Positions 11,488 to 58,001 of a stretch of 64,000 nt of DNA are shown piece after piece. The stretch is from a virus, in the IMG/VR virus record IMGVR_UViG_3300047472_000231, positions 1 through 64,000 of that record; one strand, given 5' to 3'. The position numbers and the translations under genes are program-made. Under the pieces are notes generated by a model that worked only from the letters and a program-made list of their open reading frames with translations, searched no databases and was not told the DNA's origin. Position 1 is the stretch's first letter, and each line of letters begins with the position of its first letter.

Positions 11488-12816
11488 ATGACCGCCAGCC
11501 CGCCCAAGGCCAACGGCAGCACCAGGCCGCGCACGCCCCTGCAGTTCGCGGACTGGCGTATCACCGCCGACCCCGAGGAGCAGCGCACCCCCCAGCCCGA
11601 GCCGGCCGCAGACCGGGCTGACCTTGTTGCCGCGGCGGAGGCTGCCGCGATCCGCGCCCGCGGCGAGGCCGAAGCCGAGGCCATCCGCATCGCGGCCGAA
11701 GCCGCAGCCCAGGCCGAGATCGTCAAGGCCGAAGAGGAAGCCCGCAAGCAGAAGATCGTCAACGACCGGGCCGCCCGGAAGGCCGCCGAGGAGCAGGCCG
11801 CATCCAACGCGCGGATCGCCGATCACAACCGGCGCCGCGATGAAGCCGACCGCGCCCGAGCCGACGCCCACGAAGCGGCCCAGGCCGAGAAGGCGACCGA
11901 GCGGAAGGCCGCCGAAGAGATCGCTGAGGCGGACGACAAGTGGCGGGCCTACGCGATCCGCTTCGCAATCGTCTGCGGCATCGTCTCCCTGCCCGTCCAG
12001 ATGTCGTTCTTCTGGAACCCGCACGCCCCCTGGATGGCCGCCGCCCCGATCATGCTCGAAGGCGCCGCCTGGGTCGTCCACCGCGGCGCCCGAGCCGCCG
12101 CGGTCAGCAAGCGGCCCGTCTGGCACTACCGGGCCATCGTCTGGCTGCTCGCCCTGATCGCCGCCGCGATCAACCTCTATCACGGGCTCCACAGCTTCGA
12201 CCCCGGCACCGCCCTCGCGACCGCGTTCGCATCCATCGCCGGCCCCGGCGTCTGGGATCTCCACGAGCACGGCCGCATCCGCCGCCGTGACGGGGTCCTG
12301 ACGCGGAAGGAGCGGAAGGCAAAGAAGCGGGCCGATGCCCGCGCCGAGGCTCTGAAGAAGCTCGAGGAGAAGGCGCAGCGCTTCGAGAAGGAGGCCGCAG
12401 ACAAGGCCGCCGAGGAGGCTCGCCAGAAGCTCGCGGCGGACCGTGAGGCGACGTACCCCAAGGTGTGGGACGAGGCGAAGAAGATCGCTGCGGCGGTCGG
12501 CGAGACCACCGTCACCGACGCCGTCTGGGCGCGCGCCTACCGCAACATCCAAGGCACCGACCCCGGCGAGTCCATCGAGTCCATCACCGCCCGCCGTGCC
12601 GCCGAGAAGCGCGTCCAAGCCGCCCTCACCGGGACCCCCGTGAACACCCTCAGCAAGACCACGAACGCGCAGCGTGCGATCCAAACACCCCGCTCTTCGT
12701 ACAAGCCTGTTCCGCCCCGCCGCACACCCGGCGACACGCCTCGCTACAGCCGTGCCGCCGGCCGCGCGCACGGCGACCTCCTCCGCCGCAAGAACACCCG
12801 CACGAAGGACCAGTGA
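11488..12816 (+). CDS. DUF2637/SpdB-like membrane protein
   Basis: 442 aa. N-terminal disordered/basic part, a long Ala/Glu/Lys-rich coiled coil (about 45-145), then a membrane domain of about four helices (about 152-262: IVCGIVSLPVQM, MAAAPIMLEGAAW, YRAIVWLLALIAAAINLYHG, FASIAGPGVWDLHEHG) and a second charged coiled coil. This membrane core resembles DUF2637, found in Streptomyces plasmid spread proteins (SpdB type) that work with TraB in intramycelial plasmid transfer. The stop overlaps the start of the translocase gene, supporting joint function. Confidence 0.75.
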   Translation: MTASPPKANGSTRPRTPLQFADWRITADPEEQRTPQPEPAADRADLVAAAEAAAIRARGEAEAEAIRIAAEAAAQAEIVKAEEEARKQKIVNDRAARKAAEEQAASNARIADHNRRRDEADRARADAHEAAQAEKATERKAAEEIAEADDKWRAYAIRFAIVCGIVSLPVQMSFFWNPHAPWMAAAPIMLEGAAWVVHRGARAAAVSKRPVWHYRAIVWLLALIAAAINLYHGLHSFDPGTALATAFASIAGPGVWDLHEHGRIRRRDGVLTRKERKAKKRADARAEALKKLEEKAQRFEKEAADKAAEEARQKLAADREATYPKVWDEAKKIAAAVGETTVTDAVWARAYRNIQGTDPGESIESITARRAAEKRVQAALTGTPVNTLSKTTNAQRAIQTPRSSYKPVPPRRTPGDTPRYSRAAGRAHGDLLRRKNTRTKDQ

Positions 12817-14816
12817 TGACGACCGAAGCCACCCCTGAGTTCCCCGCCGACTGGGACCTCACGAAGGTGATCCCCGGCGAGCTGCACGTGCCCGACGACC
12901 TGTCCGGCGAGGACATCGCGCCCGGCATCGTCGTCCCCTACGAGCCGCGCCTGCCCGCCCTGCGCACCGCAGGCTCGGCCGCCATGGTCGTCGCCGCGAC
13001 AACCGGGCGGGCGTGCGGGCTCACCGCCCGCTGGTTCTTCACCGGCACCCGCGCGGTCGGCTTCCTCGGCTGGCGCTACGTCCGCGCCCACGACCTCCAA
13101 GAGGTCATCGGCGGCATGTCGAAGGCCGGCGACTGGAACAAGGTCGACATCGTCCGCAAGAAGCGGTGGCGGATCCTCGGCTGGGCCGCCGGCATCACCG
13201 CCGGCCTCAACCTCGCCGGCTGGATAGCCCTCGCCTCCGGTGCGGGCATGGACGCAGGCGGCGCAGCGATGGCCATCCCGCCCACCATCACCGGAGCTGT
13301 CGTCGCCGCGGCGGTCACCCTGTACGGCCGCTACCGGACCAACCGGCCCGAGCTCGCCCCGCAGATGATGATCGCCGATCAGGACGACCCCAACAGCGAT
13401 GAGCCGTTCCCGCTGGCGCTCGCTACGTCGCCGGGCATGGTCGAGGACTGCGTGTCCCGAGCCCTGGCCTGGGAGGGCATCGACGTCCGGCAGGTTCGCG
13501 CGCTCGGCTTCCACGGCAAGTTCTGGGAGATCGACGTGATCCTCAAGGGCTCCACCCCGGGCAAGGTCAATGCGGTCGCCGAGCAGCTGGACACCCACTT
13601 CAACATCAAGCAAGGCGGGACCCTGATCGACCCTGACCCGCAGCAGTCCGCGCACATCGTGCTGCGCCTCGTCACCGGCAACCCGTTCGACGACATGCCG
13701 AAGCCAGCCATCCACGCCCCGAACAGCCTAGACATCACCCAGGCGCACAACTTCGGCCGGTGCATGGACGGTTCCCTGCTCGACCTCGTCCTCGAGGGCC
13801 TGCGGATCCTCGTCATCGGCGTGTCCGGCGCCGCCAAGTCCACCGGCGTGCTGCGTGACCTCGCCGAGGTCATTACCGCCTGCCACAACGCGATCGCCAT
13901 CGAGATGGACCCGGTCAAGGACGGGCTGCGTGAGTTCGACGGCGCCATGGCCGTCCCGCCGATCCGCGGCACCAAGGCGTGCGAGGAGTGGCTCGAAAAC
14001 CTGGTGAAGATGGCGAAGGGCCGTCAGGTCGTCCGGAACCGGCTCAACATGGGCGACACGTGGGTGGCCACCCGGGAACGCCCGGCGATCTTCGCGCTGG
14101 TTGATGAGTTTATCTACCTCAGCCCCCGAGGGAAGGAGCTGTTCATCGAGCTTCTGCGGCTGGGGAAGCAGTCTGGGATCTACCCGATCGCCGCCGGGCA
14201 GGACGCCACCTCCGACGCCATGGGTGATGCGATCGCCGACTCCTTCACCCTGCAGGTCATGCTCGCCTCCCGGTGGGACGACATCCGCATCGTGTTCGGG
14301 CAAGGTGCCGCCGCGAAGGGCTTCCGCCCCGACCGGCTTGTGCCCGCCCAGAACCGGCAGATAAAGAACGACGCCGGCCAGTCCTACATCAAGGGCCCCG
14401 GTCTGGATCGGCCGCTGCTGTACGGGTGGAACGAGCACAGCGGCGAGGCGATCAAGCGTGCCGTCGAAGCCCGCAAGCAGGCGGGGCGGCCGTGGTTCGA
14501 CCGGGACACCCTCGCCGCCGCCGGCCTCCTGCACCTGGCCGATGGCGGGGCGGGGGAGCGGATCATAGGGGACCGGAAGATCGCGGCCGACTGCATGGCG
14601 GTCATGGCTGACGCGGGCGTGGACCGGATGAAGACCGAGGCGCTCGCCGAGGCGCTCGCCCAGTTCGCTCCGGACGCATACGGAGATCTGACGGCCGCCG
14701 AGCTGCGGGCGCTGCTGAAGGCGGCTGGGGCCGGGTCACCGGTGACCCTCGGCTACCTCAACGGCGAGAACAACCCGCGCGGATTCAAGCTCGAAGCCCT
14801 GACTGCTTTGACCTAG
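12816..14816 (+). CDS. TraB/FtsK-SpoIIIE-type DNA translocase
   Basis: 666-aa membrane-anchored ATPase, ATG overlapping the preceding stop. Residues 45-160 hold hydrophobic segments (two membrane regions). The motor domain has Walker A GVSGAAKST (about 335-343) and Walker B FALVDEF (about 427-433). The C-terminal part is helical with LTAAELRALLKAAG, where TraB proteins carry a DNA-reading winged helix. Single-protein TraB hexamers move double-stranded plasmid DNA between Streptomyces cells. The gene follows the SpdB-like gene and is directly followed by a repeat array that may be its recognition locus. It is not the chromosomal FtsK, which is longer and has four membrane helices. Confidence 0.85.
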   Translation: MTTEATPEFPADWDLTKVIPGELHVPDDLSGEDIAPGIVVPYEPRLPALRTAGSAAMVVAATTGRACGLTARWFFTGTRAVGFLGWRYVRAHDLQEVIGGMSKAGDWNKVDIVRKKRWRILGWAAGITAGLNLAGWIALASGAGMDAGGAAMAIPPTITGAVVAAAVTLYGRYRTNRPELAPQMMIADQDDPNSDEPFPLALATSPGMVEDCVSRALAWEGIDVRQVRALGFHGKFWEIDVILKGSTPGKVNAVAEQLDTHFNIKQGGTLIDPDPQQSAHIVLRLVTGNPFDDMPKPAIHAPNSLDITQAHNFGRCMDGSLLDLVLEGLRILVIGVSGAAKSTGVLRDLAEVITACHNAIAIEMDPVKDGLREFDGAMAVPPIRGTKACEEWLENLVKMAKGRQVVRNRLNMGDTWVATRERPAIFALVDEFIYLSPRGKELFIELLRLGKQSGIYPIAAGQDATSDAMGDAIADSFTLQVMLASRWDDIRIVFGQGAAAKGFRPDRLVPAQNRQIKNDAGQSYIKGPGLDRPLLYGWNEHSGEAIKRAVEARKQAGRPWFDRDTLAAAGLLHLADGGAGERIIGDRKIAADCMAVMADAGVDRMKTEALAEALAQFAPDAYGDLTAAELRALLKAAGAGSPVTLGYLNGENNPRGFKLEALTALT

Positions 14817-14826
14817 AAAGTCCCCT

Positions 14827-14976
14827 GCTCAAGAGGTGCTCAACACTGCTCAACCGCAGGTCAGAGCCGCTCAATCACCTGCTCAAGCACGTGCTCAGCG
14901 AGATCGTGAGCAGGGCCTGAGCGGCACCTTGAGCGGCTGTGACCTGCAACGGAGCACCCCTGAGCAGTCGTTGAGC
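14827..14976. repeat. Helically phased GCTCA/TGAGC array, candidate clt or origin
   Basis: GCTCA occurs at 14827, 14838, 14848, 14869, 14881 and 14893; its complement TGAGC occurs at 14907, 14918, 14930, 14961 and 14972. Degenerate copies (GGTCA 14859, TGACC 14940, GGAGC 14951) fill the gaps, giving 14 units at 10-14 bp steps that invert once near 14900. The two halves are an imperfect long palindrome: TTGAGCGGCTGTGACCTGC on the right matches the left arm's complement with one mismatch. It starts 11 bases after the translocase stop. Position and structure resemble Streptomyces clt loci; an iteron origin is the alternative. Confidence 0.75.
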
Positions 14977-15024
14977 ACCTCGCAAACCATCACAAACCGA
15001 TCACCTGTCCGAGGAGCCCCGATC

Positions 15025-15801
15025 ATGCCCGCGAAGCGTCAGCCGGCCCGCCGGACCACCCCGGCGAAGCGCCGCAAGCCGTCCGCCCGCAACCACCCCG
15101 CCCGCCGCGTCAAGATCCCCCGCAAGGGCCCGCTGCACCACCAAATCGGCGCCCGCATGGTCCTGTTCGCCGTCTCCCACCTCGACACCCACGGCGACAC
15201 CGTCCGCTCCCGCAAAGACGCCGCCATCCTCCGCGCCACCCACAAGGGCTGCACCACCTGCCAGGGCAACGGGCAGATCTTCACCAAGGGCAAAGACGGC
15301 TCCTTCACCGGCTCCAAGCCCTGCCCAGCCAAACCCACCAAGGAGCGCGTCTCTCGGTGGGAGGTGTACAAGGCCAGCCGCTTCGGCGCCGACAAGAACA
15401 CCGGTCTCGTCGGCTGGGCCTGCCCCTGCGGCAAGAAGGAGAAGCCCCGCTACCGCGACGCGAAGGAAGCCACCAAGGCCCTGCGCACCCACGAACGGCA
15501 GAAGCATGGCGGCAAGAGCGTCGGAGGCGCCTGGTACGCGCAGGCCACTGAGGGCGCCAAGCAGGCTGCAGACCCGAAGCCCGAGCCGATGCCGTCAAAG
15601 GTCGTCCCCAACTCCGGCATGACCGACGAGCAGTGGGTCGGCCAGAACAAGGGCATGCCCGTCGGTAAGGCCATCGCCAAGGGCAAGTGCTGGAAGTGCT
15701 CCGGCGAAGGCAAGCTCCACGGGACCTTCGGCAACGAGCAGATCCTTACCGTCTGCCCGGAATGCAGGGGCAGCGGCAAGCCGACGAAGGTCGCCGCCTG
15801 A
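15025..15801 (+). CDS. DnaJ-type zinc-motif protein
   Basis: 258 aa from ATG 15025 (GAGGAG 10 bases upstream); longer frames would run through the repeat array. The N-terminus is very basic (AKRQPARRTTPAKRRK). Zinc-type motifs follow: CTTCQGNG (about 75), CPCGKK (about 134), CWKCSGEG (about 220) and CPECRGSG (about 244). The CxxCxGxG spacing is that of DnaJ zinc repeats, but there is no J-domain. Probably a DNA- or RNA-binding accessory protein; its place beside the repeat array makes it a candidate array-binding protein. Confidence 0.65.
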   Translation: MPAKRQPARRTTPAKRRKPSARNHPARRVKIPRKGPLHHQIGARMVLFAVSHLDTHGDTVRSRKDAAILRATHKGCTTCQGNGQIFTKGKDGSFTGSKPCPAKPTKERVSRWEVYKASRFGADKNTGLVGWACPCGKKEKPRYRDAKEATKALRTHERQKHGGKSVGGAWYAQATEGAKQAADPKPEPMPSKVVPNSGMTDEQWVGQNKGMPVGKAIAKGKCWKCSGEGKLHGTFGNEQILTVCPECRGSGKPTKVAA

Positions 15802-43156: not shown

Positions 43157-43668
43157 CACGCCACCGCTTTCTTCCTGCGGGCCCGCTTGCGGGGGCCGGT
43201 ACGTGCTTCGTATTCCGCGTTCCGTCGCCGGGCGCACCGTCGGCACTCGCGTCCACCGTCTGGTCGGCGGTAGGTGTTCGCTGCGTCGTAGGGGTTGCCG
43301 CAGACGCCGCAATGCGTCTTTGCGGCGTTGACGTTCTGGCCGTGGGTGACGGCGTCGAGCATGTTCTGCGATCGGCTACCGAATGCGAGGTTGGCAGCTC
43401 TGCAGTCAGCCTTCACGCCATTGAGGTGACGGACGTCCACGCCTTCGGAGCGGGGTCCTATGAAGGCCTCGGCGACCAGTTGGTGCACGGATCGGAGTCG
43501 ACGCTTGCCGCCCGTGTAGATGTACAGGGTCATATAGCCGTGGGTGCCCTTGGAAGGCTTGAGGATCTGCGGCGTCTTGCGCAGCAGACTCCGAACGCGC
43601 CCTAGGCTGCTGACCTCGTAGCGCCCTTCGGCGCCAGTCACGGACCGCCACTCTTCTGATTCGGTCAT
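43156..43668 (-). CDS. NUMOD4/HNH homing-type endonuclease
   Basis: 170 aa. NUMOD4 pattern at residues 6-30 (EEWRSVTGAEGRYEVSSLGR), then HNH-type VHQLVAEAFIG (about 60-70), VRHLNGVKADCRAANLAFGS and RSQNMLDAVTHGQN. A C-terminal zinc knuckle CGVC...CRRC and a basic end follow. Free-standing endonucleases of this class spread by cutting allelic sites. It lies within the glycosylation cassette; the ATG overlaps the preceding glycosyltransferase stop. Confidence 0.85.
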   Translation of the reverse strand: MTESEEWRSVTGAEGRYEVSSLGRVRSLLRKTPQILKPSKGTHGYMTLYIYTGGKRRLRSVHQLVAEAFIGPRSEGVDVRHLNGVKADCRAANLAFGSRSQNMLDAVTHGQNVNAAKTHCGVCGNPYDAANTYRRPDGGRECRRCARRRNAEYEARTGPRKRARRKKAVA

Positions 43669-44543
43669 GCCGCCGCCCCCTGGTTGGGGATCTTCTCGGC
43701 GAGCGCCCGGTATCTGTCGAGGAGATCCGTCGCGTTCAGGAAGGGATGTTGAGGAAAAAAGGACCAATGGGACACAACGGCGTTGCCGCGGAGGATGTTG
43801 GGCCGTCCGGTCGCGAGCGGCTGGTGCACGGTGTGGAATGACTCCTCCTCGTCGGGGACGAGGATCCCGGGGCCGTGGGGCAGGTCGGCGTACATGCTGC
43901 CCAGGCTTGCGAAACAGCTGACGGAGAACTGGGTTCCAGGCTGGAGCGGGAAGTCCTGGTACATGTAGAGCGACTCGACGGTCCCCGCCTCTATGTGGTC
44001 GAGGAGCAGCTCGTGCAGCTTCACGGCGAAGGGTCCGTTGGCCCAGCCGGTGGGGTCCATGCAGTAGGCGTTGACGGCGCCCCACTCCATGGGAACCTTC
44101 CCGCACAGCTGCAGGAAGTGGGAGCAGATCGCGTTGTTGATGATGATCGGGAACACGGCGGTCGGCGCGGGCATCTCGATACGGGCGCGTACCAGGTTCT
44201 CGACGGCCGCCTCGTGCAGGTAGACGACATCGTCATCGAGCCGTAGGTAGATCGCGTCGGGGTCGGTCATCTCCCGGTAGGCGTAACCGGTGTTGCGCTG
44301 CTTCTGCCCGTGAATGAGCACCCCCTCCGGCCTGTGCTTGAGAACAAACCAGGGGTACTGCTCCGCCAGCTCGTGCGCGTAGGCGACGTCGTCTTCCTGG
44401 CCGGTCGGGTCGGTGTTCATGAACGCCCAGACCTCGTCGACGAGGCCGCGGGCGACGTCCCGCTTCAGGTACTTGATCAAGATGCTGTACGTTCTGCGGC
44501 GCCCGTAGGGTGTCCAGGCGATCACGCGGCGGCCGTCAATCAT
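43665..44543 (-). CDS. Glycosyltransferase (GT-A-like)
   Basis: 292 aa. The sequence has an early KYLKRD/VDEVWAFMNTDP region and a DxD-type metal/nucleotide-sugar motif YLRLDDDVVYL (about 107-117), followed by PIIINNAICSHFL and WGAVNAY. This suits a metal-dependent GT-A transferase. It likely transfers a sugar to a phage structural protein or a host surface molecule; substrate unknown. The ATG overlaps the stop of the next upstream gene. Confidence 0.75.
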   Translation of the reverse strand: MIDGRRVIAWTPYGRRRTYSILIKYLKRDVARGLVDEVWAFMNTDPTGQEDDVAYAHELAEQYPWFVLKHRPEGVLIHGQKQRNTGYAYREMTDPDAIYLRLDDDVVYLHEAAVENLVRARIEMPAPTAVFPIIINNAICSHFLQLCGKVPMEWGAVNAYCMDPTGWANGPFAVKLHELLLDHIEAGTVESLYMYQDFPLQPGTQFSVSCFASLGSMYADLPHGPGILVPDEEESFHTVHQPLATGRPNILRGNAVVSHWSFFPQHPFLNATDLLDRYRALAEKIPNQGAAA

Positions 44544-45568
44544 GCTGCTGTCCTCTCTGCTGCGGGCGCAGAGAGCGCCGCTTCCCACTGTCGGTTGATG
44601 GCCTGGAGGATCGATCCGGAGGCCTCTGCGCGGGCGGCCATGCCCATCTGCTGCCGCAGCCCGGGATCGTCCACGAGGCGCTTCAGGTAGCGGCCCCACT
44701 CGTGCTCGCGCCGCACCAGGAACCCGTTCTCCCCGTGCCGGATCACCCGGCGGTACGGCTCTATGTCCGACGCAATCAACGGGATGCCGAGGATCGAGGA
44801 CTCCAGCCACTTCGTCGGATACTTCGCCCGGTTGAACGGGATGTCCCGGTACGGCGCCACCCAGACGTCCCATTCGCCGACCGCCTGCATGTAGTGCTCG
44901 TGCCGCTCCACCCACCCCAACGCCCCGATCTGCCAGCCGCGGAGCCCGAGCGCCATGGCGTGCTCGGGAGTGATACCGACGATGCGGACCTGCACGCCGC
45001 CGGGCCGCCGGTACTGCGAGATCCGGTTCAGCGCCCGGACCGCCTCCGGGAGTTCGGCGACCGTGGACGACGTGCCGGCCCAGCCAACCGACAGCGGCCG
45101 GCCCTTCGCCTGATAGTCGCGGGGCGTCCCCAGGTACTGCGCCGGCAGCCCATTGGGGACGACTCGGACGTCGGCCGCATAGTCGCGGAGGACGGCGGCC
45201 AGCGGCTCTGAGCAGCAGGTGACGAGGTCGGCGAGCTGCATGTTGTCGGCGAGGCGTTGCAGCATCGCCTTGTCCCAGGTGCGGACGGCGGCCTGGTTGA
45301 CGGGGTCGAGGTGGAAGTAGTCGTCGTCGAGATCGAGGACGAGCCGCTTCCCCTGCTCTTTCAGCCGCTGCCACATCATGGTCGGCTCTGGTTTGGCGAC
45401 GCGGCAGCCAACGACCGTGTCCAGGGCGGGCCAGTCCTTCGGGAGCCGCATCCCGCCAGATACGGCGTGCCCGAGCCATTGCAGGCTCATGCCGGGCAGG
45501 ATCGCCCTATACAGGGCGGAACCTGCCTCGTCGGCCGACCAGAAGTGAACGCGCACGTCAGGCCACAC
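44540..45568 (-). CDS. Glycosyltransferase (GT-B, group 1-like)
   Basis: 342 aa from GTG 45568. It has VLDLDDDYFHLDP (about 77-89), a Rossmann entry VVPNGLPAQYLG, SVGWAGTSSTVAELPEAVRAL (given in parts), and the donor-binding end KWLESSILGIPLIASDIEPY with GENGFLV, the normal retaining GT4 layout. Partner of the adjacent GT-A enzyme and epimerase in one operon. The start is chosen to limit overlap with the upstream gene; an upstream extension runs in another gene's frame. Confidence 0.8.
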   Translation of the reverse strand: MWPDVRVHFWSADEAGSALYRAILPGMSLQWLGHAVSGGMRLPKDWPALDTVVGCRVAKPEPTMMWQRLKEQGKRLVLDLDDDYFHLDPVNQAAVRTWDKAMLQRLADNMQLADLVTCCSEPLAAVLRDYAADVRVVPNGLPAQYLGTPRDYQAKGRPLSVGWAGTSSTVAELPEAVRALNRISQYRRPGGVQVRIVGITPEHAMALGLRGWQIGALGWVERHEHYMQAVGEWDVWVAPYRDIPFNRAKYPTKWLESSILGIPLIASDIEPYRRVIRHGENGFLVRREHEWGRYLKRLVDDPGLRQQMGMAARAEASGSILQAINRQWEAALSAPAAERTAA

Positions 45569-45884
45569 CGCTTCGCAGCTGAGCCTGAGCCTTCCGGATC
45601 TCGTCCTTGACCTGCTCGCGGAACTTCTCGAAGTCGCCTTCGATCTGGACGTGAAGCGGGTAGCTGTCGGGACCGGTCGGCACCTCGTTGGCGGGGATCT
45701 CAACTTCCTCGTCGAAGACGAGGATGGTTCGAGCTCCGAGCTCGTCCCTCAAGTGGGGTGGATCGCGCAGGAAGTCCAGCATGCTTTCTGGATTCTGGAC
45801 CTTGTCGATGACCAGGACGAACGGCGTGACCATGTCGTCGCCGTGGTGCTCGGTCGGAAGTTCGAGGATCTGCAGACGCGCCAT
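45558..45884 (-). CDS. Hypothetical 108-aa protein in sugar cassette
   Basis: Begins MARLQILELPTEHHGDDMVTPF in a TGATG overlap with the epimerase. ELP-T-x-HHGDDMVTPF-VLVIDKV is a pattern found in short proteins next to glycosyltransferases in actinophages (memory-based). It ends with a charged coiled helix. Function unknown; perhaps a chaperone or receiver domain-like protein. Confidence 0.65.
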   Translation of the reverse strand: MARLQILELPTEHHGDDMVTPFVLVIDKVQNPESMLDFLRDPPHLRDELGARTILVFDEEVEIPANEVPTGPDSYPLHVQIEGDFEKFREQVKDEIRKAQAQLRSGVA

Positions 45885-46855
45885 CAGACCGTCACCGCCT
45901 GCGAATCGACCAGATACCCGGGGAGCCACTGTTCGGCGTAGTAGCGGACGGTGTGGTGGATGCCTTCGTCGAGGGGCACGAAGTCGGCGGCCGTCATCCC
46001 GATCTGCTGGAGCGTCGTCGTGTCGGAGGAGACGACGGCGTTGGGGACTTCGCCGGGCCGCATCGGCAGGTGCTTGATGGCGACGGGCTCGCGACCCGTG
46101 TACCGGGTGGCTTCTTCGGCGACGAGGCGGGCGATGTCGTTGACGGTGAGGGACTCCAGCGGCCCGACCTCGACCGGCTTCTCGGTGGGCCCGTGGGCGG
46201 CGGTGTGCTCGAGCGCGGTGACGAACGCGCGGGCGACGTCGGCGACGTACACGCAGTCGGAGATCTGGGTGCCGTCTCCGTACACCTCGATTGGGGCGCC
46301 GGTCAGGGCGCGGCACGACAGCGAAGGCATGATCTTCCGAACCTTGCTGGTGCCGTAGGGGGCGGCGATCGACTGCCCCGGCCCGTAGGCGTTGACGGGG
46401 CGGACGATGGTGATCCGGCCGCCGTCCCGGTAGAGGTTGTACATGCGGGCCAGGTCCTCGGCCGCGCTCTTGGTGATCGTGTAGCAGCCGGTTCCCTGGA
46501 GCCGCATGAAGTGGTTGCCCACCCCTGCATAGGCGACCGGTAGCCCGTACTGCGTGGCGGCCTCGAAGACGTTCAGCGAGCCGAGGATGTTCGTCTCCGC
46601 CGACGGGCGCGGGTTGCTGATCGTCTCCTGCGTGCCGAGGACGGCCGCGAGGTGGATGATCCCCTCGCAGTGCGCGGCGGCCTCCGTCACGGCGGTGGCG
46701 TCGCGGACGTCGCCGAGGAAGAACTCCTCGCCGGGCGCGAGCTGCTGGCGGCGGTCCTGGTGGTCCATGACGAGCACCGTGTGGCCGCGCGCGAGGAGTT
46801 CCTTGCGGATCCATGAAGCGATGAAGCCGGAGCCCCCAGTGACGAGTGTCTTCAT
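45884..46855 (-). CDS. NAD-dependent epimerase/dehydratase (extended SDR)
   Basis: 323-aa nucleotide-sugar-modifying enzyme. N-terminal TGGSGFIAS (residues 6-14) is the Rossmann dinucleotide motif; GDVRD (48-52) follows; catalytic YxxxK is at Tyr125-Lys129 (CYTITKS). NAYGPGQS and the later VYVADVARAFV region match UDP-glucose-4-epimerase-like enzymes. It probably prepares the activated sugar used by the two adjacent transferases. Length and motifs are complete. Confidence 0.85.
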   Translation of the reverse strand: MKTLVTGGSGFIASWIRKELLARGHTVLVMDHQDRRQQLAPGEEFFLGDVRDATAVTEAAAHCEGIIHLAAVLGTQETISNPRPSAETNILGSLNVFEAATQYGLPVAYAGVGNHFMRLQGTGCYTITKSAAEDLARMYNLYRDGGRITIVRPVNAYGPGQSIAAPYGTSKVRKIMPSLSCRALTGAPIEVYGDGTQISDCVYVADVARAFVTALEHTAAHGPTEKPVEVGPLESLTVNDIARLVAEEATRYTGREPVAIKHLPMRPGEVPNAVVSSDTTTLQQIGMTAADFVPLDEGIHHTVRYYAEQWLPGYLVDSQAVTV

Positions 46856-51906: not shown

Positions 51907-52178
51907 CCGAGCCCTACGACCCGCTGCCAGATCTCATCGACCGCGCCGAGAAGCGCCCCGACGGCATAGGGCAACTCAAGGACCTCGCCCGACTCGCTCT
52001 CCACTGGCACCGGGCTGAACTCGGCTGGGCGACCGACGGTGTCACGAAGGACCCAGAGACCGGAGAGCTGATGTACACGCTGTCCACTGGCTGCGCCTGC
52101 GGGTCTGGAGAGTTCCCCTGCCGCGCACGACGCCAGATCACGGCCATCTTCGGCGTGGAAGAGAAGGAACGCCGGTGA
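51903..52178 (+). CDS. Hypothetical protein
   Basis: 91 aa, GTG overlapping the previous stop. Helical N-terminus, then a loop with CACGSGEFPCR (Cys/Gly-rich) and a basic end. Unknown. Ends in a 4-base overlap with the recombinase gene. Confidence 0.6.
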   Translation: MTEPYDPLPDLIDRAEKRPDGIGQLKDLARLALHWHRAELGWATDGVTKDPETGELMYTLSTGCACGSGEFPCRARRQITAIFGVEEKERR

Positions 52179-53317
52179 CCGCCCACCTCCCCACCCAGTC
52201 GGCCGGGCAGTCGATCGCGCTGCCCGGCTCGGACCTGTTCGAAGAAGTCCGCCGCAAGCTCGTCGACGACCTCGGCATGGTGCAGGTCGACCGGCGCGGC
52301 CAAGAGCGCATCTACCGGCCCCGCGCCGAACTCGTCGCCGAAGCCGTCACCCCCGAGACGTTCGTCATGGTCATGGACTGGCTGTCCTCCACCCGGCGCG
52401 GCAGCCTCCAGACCAAACGCAACTACGTCGACGACATCCGCCGCGTCTGGGGCGGCTACGCGCAAGAACTGGGCCACGAGCGGTTCTTCCTCGGCTGCTT
52501 CACTGCCGACCACATCCGCGCCTGGCGCCTCCGCATGGAAGGCCGCGGGAACCCGCCGACGACGATCGCCCGCTACCTCAACGCGCTCTCCTCGCTCCAC
52601 ACCTACGCCGCCGAAAAGATCGACCTCCCCAAGAACCCCGTCACCCAAGACGACCGACCCAAAGTCGACAAGGGCAACACCTCCCGCAGCACCCCCGTAC
52701 TGGAGGTCGAGGAGATCCAAGCCGTCGCCAACGCCGCAGAGAACGAGTTCGACGCCCTCGTCGTCCTCCTCCTCTACACCCTCGCCGGACGCGTCACCGA
52801 AATGGTCGCCGCCGACGTCGACAAGAGGATCGAACGCGGACGCCGCTCCTACCTCGACGTCACCCGCAAAGAACACAAGGAACGCATCCTCCCGCTCCCC
52901 GTCACCGTCGCCGAACTCCTCGACGCCCACACGGTCGGCCGCACCGAAGGCCCGCTCCTCCTCGACGCCGACGGCCGCCGGCTCGACCGGCACGACGTCG
53001 CCCGACTCCTCACCCGCCTCGGCCGCAAAGCCCGCGTCCTCACCTGCCCGGCCGTCGACAAGCCGGGGCACGCCTTCACCCGGTGCAAAATCTGCCGGAA
53101 GCTCACCCCCCACGTCCTCCGCGCCAGCCGAATCACCCACATGCTCGACGCCGGCGAACCCCTCGCCGAAGTCCAAGCCTTCGCCGACCACGACAACCCC
53201 GCCACCACCGTCGGCTACTGGAACCGCCGCAAGAAGGGCGAGCGGAACGCCGCCCACGTCGACGCAGCCGAAGCCCTGTTCGCCGGGATCACCGACCGCT
53301 TTCGCCCGATCGCCTGA
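52175..53317 (+). CDS. Tyrosine recombinase with Cys/His insertion
   Basis: 380 aa, GTG overlapping the previous stop. The core-binding domain (about 55-155) precedes a catalytic domain with Arg206 (AGRVTEM), a Lys at 232 or 235, His313 and Arg316 (TPHVLRASR), His339 (DHDNP) and Tyr348 (VGYWN). Between the Lys and HxxR lies C291, H299, C304, C307, a probable zinc site unusual for integrases. The full catalytic set suggests activity. It is a second recombinase beside the integrase at 56709; it may resolve multimers or act on another site. Confidence 0.85.
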   Translation: MTAHLPTQSAGQSIALPGSDLFEEVRRKLVDDLGMVQVDRRGQERIYRPRAELVAEAVTPETFVMVMDWLSSTRRGSLQTKRNYVDDIRRVWGGYAQELGHERFFLGCFTADHIRAWRLRMEGRGNPPTTIARYLNALSSLHTYAAEKIDLPKNPVTQDDRPKVDKGNTSRSTPVLEVEEIQAVANAAENEFDALVVLLLYTLAGRVTEMVAADVDKRIERGRRSYLDVTRKEHKERILPLPVTVAELLDAHTVGRTEGPLLLDADGRRLDRHDVARLLTRLGRKARVLTCPAVDKPGHAFTRCKICRKLTPHVLRASRITHMLDAGEPLAEVQAFADHDNPATTVGYWNRRKKGERNAAHVDAAEALFAGITDRFRPIA

Positions 53318-56708: not shown

Positions 56709-58001
56709 TTAGGAAGATCCCTCGAACCAGTTCTGCATCGCCGTGCGGCCCCGCCCGTCTGCCTCCGGCATCATGTGCGCGTAGATCCTCAACGTGATCG
56801 ACGCGTTCTCGTGCCCCAGCCACTGAGAGACTGCCACGATCGGCTCCCGCGCATCCAGCTGCACCGACGCGAACGTGTGCCGCAGGGCATGGAACCCGTT
56901 CTCCCGGCTCTCCGCGTAGGTCTTCACCGTGCGGGTCACACCGGGGCGCGACGCGATCGGCTGCTTCGTTACCTCAGGCGGTCCGATGACGCCCGCCCCC
57001 GAGAGGGCCGGCTTCCAGATGCGCGTGTCCCAGGCGTCTCGGCGCATCCCGCCCCCGTTCGGCCCGGGAAGGATGAGCGCGTGCTCCCGCGGCTCCCGCA
57101 GCTCCTTCTCGCGCTCCGTCTCGCCCGGGGCGGGGTTCGACCACGGCAGCTTCACCAACTGCGCGGGCCGTGCAGCCAGATGATCCGAAATACGCTTCAG
57201 GAGATACGACGGCACCGGCACGTCCCGCGTCTTCTGCCCCTTCGGCAGCGCGTAGCAGAGTTTGGATCCGACCTTCTTGATCTGCCGCCTGACGTGGATC
57301 CGCTCGTTCTCCTCGTCGATGTCCTCCAGGGCGAGCCCGAAGACCTCGCCGGCCCTCAGGCCGGCCCCGACGCCGATGTCGACGGCGATCTGGAACCGCG
57401 GGTCCATCGCCTTTTGAACGGCAAGCACCCGCTCCTTGTCCCAGGCGCGCGGCTTCGGTGACGGCCGCGAGGGGGGCCGCACCGACTGCTGGGAACGGCA
57501 GTAGTTTTTGGTGATCCGTTCGTCATCGACTGCCGACTGCAGGATCGAAGCCAGGTAGTGCCAGGCCTCATTGACCGTCCCCGGGCCGACGCCGCCTTTG
57601 AGCTCGGCGAGCCAGCGTTTCAGCTGGGGCGTCTTGACCGCGTTCAACTGCAGGTTGCCGAGGTGCGGAAGGATGTGCGTCCAGACCCGGCTGTGCACCG
57701 TGTTCGCCGTCGCCGGGTCGTCGTAGCCCTTGTTCGGCCACCACTCCTCCTCGATGTAGTCCCGGAGGAGGAGTTCGCCGCGGCGTGGATCGATGAACTC
57801 CCCTGCCGACGCCTGGTGCTGAGCCTTCGCCAGCCAGGCCTTCGCCCCCTTGACGCCGGTCAGGTTGTCGAAGGAGCGAGCCCGGACGCCGGGGATCCCG
57901 GCGACCTTGTAGCGCTTGCCCTGGCCGTTTCGGTCGGTGGGCAGGCTGCGCTTCCCATCGGGGCCCTTCTTGTACCAGCGGTCTTCGATGTATCCGGGCA
58001 T
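56709..58001 (-). CDS. int: Site-specific tyrosine integrase
   Basis: 430 aa. N-terminal arm-binding region (about 1-70), SAM-like core-binding domain (about 75-165), and catalytic domain with Arg216 (GAGLRAGEV), His371/Arg374 (FHALRHTF), His397 (LGHEN) and Tyr407 (RIYAHM). This is the typical integrase of Streptomyces phages and AICEs, with a normal length. It catalyses attP x attB recombination; attP is probably adjacent at 56309-56705. The ATG is followed by MPGYIEDRWYKKGPDGK. Confidence 0.92.
   Translation of the reverse strand: MPGYIEDRWYKKGPDGKRSLPTDRNGQGKRYKVAGIPGVRARSFDNLTGVKGAKAWLAKAQHQASAGEFIDPRRGELLLRDYIEEEWWPNKGYDDPATANTVHSRVWTHILPHLGNLQLNAVKTPQLKRWLAELKGGVGPGTVNEAWHYLASILQSAVDDERITKNYCRSQQSVRPPSRPSPKPRAWDKERVLAVQKAMDPRFQIAVDIGVGAGLRAGEVFGLALEDIDEENERIHVRRQIKKVGSKLCYALPKGQKTRDVPVPSYLLKRISDHLAARPAQLVKLPWSNPAPGETEREKELREPREHALILPGPNGGGMRRDAWDTRIWKPALSGAGVIGPPEVTKQPIASRPGVTRTVKTYAESRENGFHALRHTFASVQLDAREPIVAVSQWLGHENASITLRIYAHMMPEADGRGRTAMQNWFEGSS

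Follow-up and report, generated by a model that had tools for sequence, protein, structure and literature searches.

What does a virus do with a long head-to-head array of short repeats placed directly behind a gene for a TraB/FtsK-type DNA translocase? This question is raised by a stretch of 64,000 nucleotides (the window), positions 1 to 64,000 of IMG/VR virus record IMGVR_UViG_3300047472_000231. The original prediction offered two answers: that the array is a new type of clt, the locus on which the TraB proteins of Streptomyces plasmids load, or that it is an origin of replication with iterons.

The element, its translocase and the array

The window comes from a virus record of 76,639 bp, which encodes a terminase, a portal protein, an endolysin, two tyrosine integrases (52175-53317 and 56709-58001, on opposite strands) and a recombination-directionality-like protein; thus, the element is a temperate tailed phage. 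The record also encodes a replication-initiation/HNH protein at about 72.4-73.5 kb, and genes for a glycosyltransferase and an NAD-dependent epimerase (43665-46855, minus strand) lie between the structural and lysis genes. The named relatives of the translocase are nearly all from Streptomyces. The features of the locus are as follows.

11488-12816, plus strand: membrane protein related to the DUF2637 protein of plasmid pSLUN2 (E=5e-13)
12816-14816, plus strand: TraB/FtsK-type DNA translocase, 666 aa (phrog_12531, E=6e-66; FtsK motor fold, 6t8o, E=5e-15)
14571-14813, plus strand: stretch coding for the predicted winged helix-turn-helix (wHTH) domain, aa 586-666; two wing residues, T644 and R655, differ between motif classes
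14827-14976, no strand assigned: head-to-head iteron array, a clt-like site with 11 exact GCTCA/TGAGC units, kept behind homologous genes
14827-14897, plus strand: left arm, GCTCA at 14827, 14838, 14848, 14869, 14881 and 14893
14856-14863, plus strand: constant element GCAGGTCA, which takes the place of the fourth unit in the left arm; shared by phages and plasmids whose iterons differ
14907-14976, minus strand: right arm, TGAGC at 14907, 14918, 14930, 14961 and 14972
14940-14947, minus strand: mirror copy of the constant element, TGACCTGC, in the right arm, kept across motif classes
14950-14956, minus strand: constant unit CGGAGCA, nearly unchanged in close relatives whose iterons switch motif
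15025-15801, plus strand: Lys/Arg-rich protein with CxxCxGxG zinc-type motifs; has a longer motif in common with the equivalently placed plasmid protein

The translocase begins with an N-terminal hydrophobic region, which is followed by the FtsK motor and the C-terminal wHTH. Pfam did not recognise the motor by sequence, and a PDB sequence search with a 15-sequence translocase profile returned no match; thus, the FtsK assignment comes from PHROGs, from fold comparison (the predicted structure has a mean pLDDT of 74, and 6t8o is its best PDB match) and from homologous plasmid translocases, including that of pFP1, which are 33-34% identical. Residues 586-666 contain predicted helices and a wing (block-mean pLDDT mostly 74-90) and are predicted to form a winged-helix-like domain. 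The membrane protein encoded upstream has no Pfam match; on pSLUN2, its DUF2637 relative is encoded directly before the translocase. The protein encoded downstream shares the pattern HKGCxxCxGxG...DGxxxGSxxC with the plasmid protein in the corresponding position; no relative of this protein, or of the wHTH of locus L027, was found in phage records. Between the array and this gene lies an A-rich stretch of the CACAAACC type (14983-15005), conserved among close relatives, which may be a promoter or a spacer.

The layout described in the original prediction was largely borne out. All eleven exact 5-mers, six GCTCA followed by five TGAGC, were located, the orientation flips once near 14900, and the halves form a long imperfect palindrome, in which 14833-14844 pairs with 14970-14981 (12/12 complementary). 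Units within an arm lie 10-12 bp apart, about 11 bp. The head-to-head score of the array, 11, is the highest of any 5-mer in the whole window; in 300 dinucleotide-shuffled versions of the local region, the mean was 4.0 and no score exceeded 7. A whole-window count found at most three GCTCA/TGAGC 5-mers per 150 bp elsewhere. Two points had to be revised. The claim that nearly all sites share one face of the helix holds inside each arm (R=0.91 at an 11-bp period, p about 0.01) but not for the two arms pooled (R=0.42 at 10.5 bp), so that one helix face is not common to both. The three units that had been described as degenerate are not decayed copies: they are kept, unchanged or nearly so, even in relatives that have replaced every other unit.

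In the FtsK-KOPS system, an FtsK motor with a DNA-reading winged helix loads on short oriented motifs. In contrast, the motif here is confined to one array. A KOPS-like genome polarity was rejected, as the motif shows neither enrichment nor bias outside the array (79 versus 68 sites).

Arrays of relatives: constant position, changing motif

Relatives were gathered from viral contigs and genomes; one locus with a misplaced translocase start (L056) was excluded from the array tests. The motif search beside translocase homologues found the array behind the gene in all 17 close homologues, the window included, and in each of these loci the real score was reached by at most 2 of 300 shuffles. In all, about 40 Streptomyces phage loci besides that of the window have such a head-to-head array after the homologous gene, as do plasmids such as pFP1. 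The intergenic region of the 17 closest loci can be aligned with few gaps, and yet the motif differs, being GCTCG in ten, GCTCA in five, and CCTCG and GCTA in one each, with about 11 units per array switching in concert. More distant loci have opposed arrays of CGTCT, CGTCC, CCGGC, ACCCG or CGTGA; arrays of the GC-rich classes CGTCT and CCGGC give weaker results when tested singly for exact 5-mers. The spacing is 10-12 bp in every class, mostly 11 bp, or 21-22 or 31-33 bp where units are skipped.

The arrays occur in phages of more than one lineage: among the 29 records examined, six have a phrog_38 terminase and 17 others one of phrog_9, confirmed as a terminase large subunit; G010, the record with locus L031, had no terminase match. 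No array was found behind the FtsK-like genes of Coruscant, Braelyn and L060, and those of Coruscant and Braelyn abut the next gene. The motors of these Coruscant/Samistivirus-type translocases are homologous to that of the window (36-38% identity).

While the roughly 11 units of an array change together, the interspersed GCAGGTCA stays fixed in position. Its GCAGGT part is present in nearly all phage loci of every motif class, although most CGTCT- and CCGGC-class loci lack the mirror copy. Plasmids pFP1 (L064), pSLUN2 (L063) and L065 contain the element in both orientations, and it is likewise mirrored, as GCAGGTCA/TGACCTGC, in L074-L077 and L093, despite completely different iterons. Three of these, L075, L076 and L077, are plasmids of 85-93 kb with diverged translocases and opposed GGAAC arrays that include GCAGGTCA; thus, the architecture is wider than the phage family of the window. 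The partner that binds GCAGGTCA/TGACCTGC may be a host protein; the zinc-motif protein encoded downstream could also bind these elements. One further element, of 92,592 bp, was met twice, as a circular plasmid of Streptomyces sp. WAC08241 (L074) and as an IMG/VR virus record (L095), and because it is recorded as both, it is probably a phage-plasmid.

Covariation of the motif with the winged helix

In pairwise comparison of loci, array similarity followed wHTH similarity (rho 0.80) more closely than motor similarity (0.53), and did not follow that of the N-terminal domain (0.05) or of the downstream protein (0.08); because locus pairs are not independent, these values are only descriptive. Natural recombinants provide stronger evidence than the correlations. 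For example, L048 (CGTCT) and L051 (CCGGC) have motors that are 98% identical and downstream proteins that are 82% identical, whereas their wHTH domains are only 41% identical and their arrays differ, which disfavours the motor as the reader of the iterons. DNA identity between these two loci falls from about 0.9 to 0.5-0.6 where the wHTH begins, remains low across the array and is back at 0.93 by the next gene. L031 and L051 agree in the downstream protein (97%) and the N-terminus (95%) and differ in motor, wHTH and array. Cassette exchange is seen in this pair as well as in L050/L035 and window/L039, with left breakpoints earlier than in L048/L051. Right breakpoints fall just before the next gene, so that the breakpoints bracket either a wHTH-plus-array or a motor-wHTH-array cassette, flanked on at least one side by near-identical DNA. 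Since the codons for the wHTH lie immediately next to the array, linkage could contribute to their travelling together. However, linkage alone is countered by the downstream gene, which starts about 50 bp past the array and is thus nearly as close, yet is uncorrelated. Viruses and plasmids exchange the wHTH and the array together, as matched partners.

The same comparisons bear on whether the array is instead an operator or a centromere-like site to which the zinc-motif protein encoded downstream binds in order to control the operon or partition. In favour of this, the gene for this basic protein with zinc-type motifs begins immediately behind the array, and a precedent exists in SpdA2 of pIJ101, whose binding target is a conserved palindrome and which influences the stability of plasmids (PMC4170104). 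However, downstream proteins that are 96-97% identical adjoin quite different motifs, the overall correlation is about zero, and no ParA-type partner (PF13614) was found in the 29 records. We regard this reading as improbable, and the downstream protein was rejected as the reader of the iterons.

Which residues might read the motif? Four residues cleanly separate the proteins with GCTCA arrays from those with GCTCG arrays (M605I, T644P, L645I and L648I). R655N is unique to the only protein with a CCTCG array, and Gln occupies position 644 in the GCTA protein; residues 644-655 fall inside the predicted wing. Plasmid CP042280 (L074) shows recognisable kinship to the query in the wHTH alone. Its wing reads PVPLG, and although it has Met605 and Leu645, as GCTCA proteins do, its array is GCTCG. 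A scan with the wHTH alignment led to L084 (PVPIG) and L093 (PVPLG), both with GCTCG arrays. All three of these later-found Pro644 loci thus have the motif predicted from the GCTCG class. L096 (PSGIG) has mixed GATCG and GCTCG units, and two VVSIG plasmids have GCTC-type units with a variable fifth base. It is an attractive idea that residue 644 reads base 5, although independent changes are few (Thr/Pro/Gln and the later loci) and residue 648 covaries.

A candidate loading site for DNA transfer

Streptomyces TraB loads on clt repeats through its C-terminal wHTH and moves double-stranded DNA between mycelia and across septa (PMC3583192, PMC5133688, PMC4170104). Because of this, and because the clt of pWTY27 likewise lies behind a tra gene, we take the array to be a clt-type loading site read by the wHTH of the adjacent translocase, within a phage module for conjugation or spread, with a probability of roughly three in four. 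Several features agree with TraB-clt systems: the translocase is of the FtsK/SpoIIIE type, its C-terminus is a predicted winged helix, and a repeat-bearing non-coding site with a motif specific to its own translocase lies beside the gene. The DUF2637-related membrane protein encoded upstream may be an accessory protein for transfer or spread. The presence of the array beside all close translocase genes, its covariation with the wHTH and the occurrence of the gene-array-gene module on pFP1 all speak for the clt reading of the original prediction. Of its two parts, binding of the array by the translocase is highly likely, and a role of the array in DNA transfer is likely, at a somewhat lower level of confidence.

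Known clt sites have been described with direct and inverted repeats, whereas the array here consists of two long opposed arms. The clt of pWTY27 extends over the adjacent 159 bp in addition to 16 bp of the tra gene, and it is footprinted by the FtsK-like Tra protein (PMC3583192). It resembles the array in its position at the end of, and behind, the tra gene, in its short repeats and in being bound by such a protein. On the other hand, it is plasmid-borne and consists of four TGACACC direct repeats, CCCGCCC and inverted repeats; as described there, it has neither long opposed arms with 11-bp spacing nor a GCAGGTCA element. The TraB-TRS system of pSVH1 also combines an FtsK-like TraB, a C-terminal wHTH and repeated short motifs (PMC5133688, PMC3583192, PMC4170104). 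Its TraB recognises repeated 8-bp motifs through the wHTH (PMC3583192), with the TRS consensus GACCCGGA (PMC5133688), and CCGGC-class arrays contain GACCCGGC, which is near this consensus. The pSVH1 motifs occur in clusters of four, and specificity was assigned to helix alpha3, whereas the class-separating residues in the family of the window lie mostly in the wing. A likeness in layout is provided by pFP1 and pSLUN2, which share the gene order DUF2637-translocase-array-basic protein, an opposed array (CTCTAC/GTAGAG) and the GCAGGTCA/TGACCTGC element; they differ in that they are not phages and that their translocases are about 34% identical over the motor and C-terminus. The plasmid-phage pZL12 and its relative pSLE1 combine phage genes with a conjugation gene on one Streptomyces element (PMC3583192, PMC4487206); these have ParA/ParB (PMC4487206), whereas ParA was not found in the 29 records.

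The second answer, that replication iterons are bound here by an initiator and lie behind the translocase gene only by accident, has in its favour that regularly spaced iterons are typical of theta origins and that Rep/iteron loci are present on pWTY27, pFP1 and pFP11 (PMC3583192). We found no support for it and consider it very improbable. No initiator gene adjoins the array, the neighbouring genes have no Rep match, and the one gene found that resembles a replication-initiation gene is some 57 kb distant. The motif follows the wHTH of the translocase instead, and pFP1, with a reported rep/iteron locus of its own (PMC3583192), has an array behind its translocase gene as well.

A further alternative accepts binding by the translocase and assigns it another purpose: movement of phage DNA within the mycelium, through septa or into spores, or regulation of its own operon, rather than conjugation between mycelia. 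On the one hand, TraB also acts in intramycelial plasmid spread (PMC5133688), and the element is a phage with particle genes of its own. On the other hand, the module is that of plasmids such as pFP1. We consider this alternative unlikely, but it carries appreciable weight; septal spread and conjugation are hard to separate because both use one protein in plasmids.

Returning to the clt-type loading site, we infer its binding, assembly, direction of pumping and DNA transfer in the following model. The C-terminal winged helix would read the 5-bp iterons, with wing residue 644, and perhaps 655, determining the bases read. Each arm would be occupied by its own set of subunits, at about one helical turn per site, and because the arms are opposed, these assemblies would face in opposite directions. 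A second, shared factor would recognise the constant GCAGGTCA elements. The resulting hexameric membrane motor would pump unprocessed double-stranded phage DNA between mycelia or through hyphal cross-walls, analogous to the action of TraB on Streptomyces plasmids.

TraB-clt systems are already known, as are plasmid-phages with conjugation genes such as pZL12 (PMC3583192, PMC4487206). In the open-access literature, we found no description of an opposed 11-bp array, of the constant GCAGGTCA element, of such arrays being widespread on tailed phages or of wHTH-plus-array cassette exchange. We would give even odds to the following broader picture. Temperate tailed Streptomyces phages of at least two unrelated packaging lineages would carry a complete TraB-clt module and could spread by conjugation as well as by particles. 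Their clt would have two parts: opposed 11-bp arms, with a motif that depends on which exchangeable wHTH-plus-array cassette is present, thereby defining non-cross-reacting transfer groups, and an invariant GCAGGTCA, common to plasmids and read by a common factor, perhaps one of the host. The swapping of matched wHTH and array between viruses and plasmids suggests that these viruses may also spread by plasmid-style conjugation.
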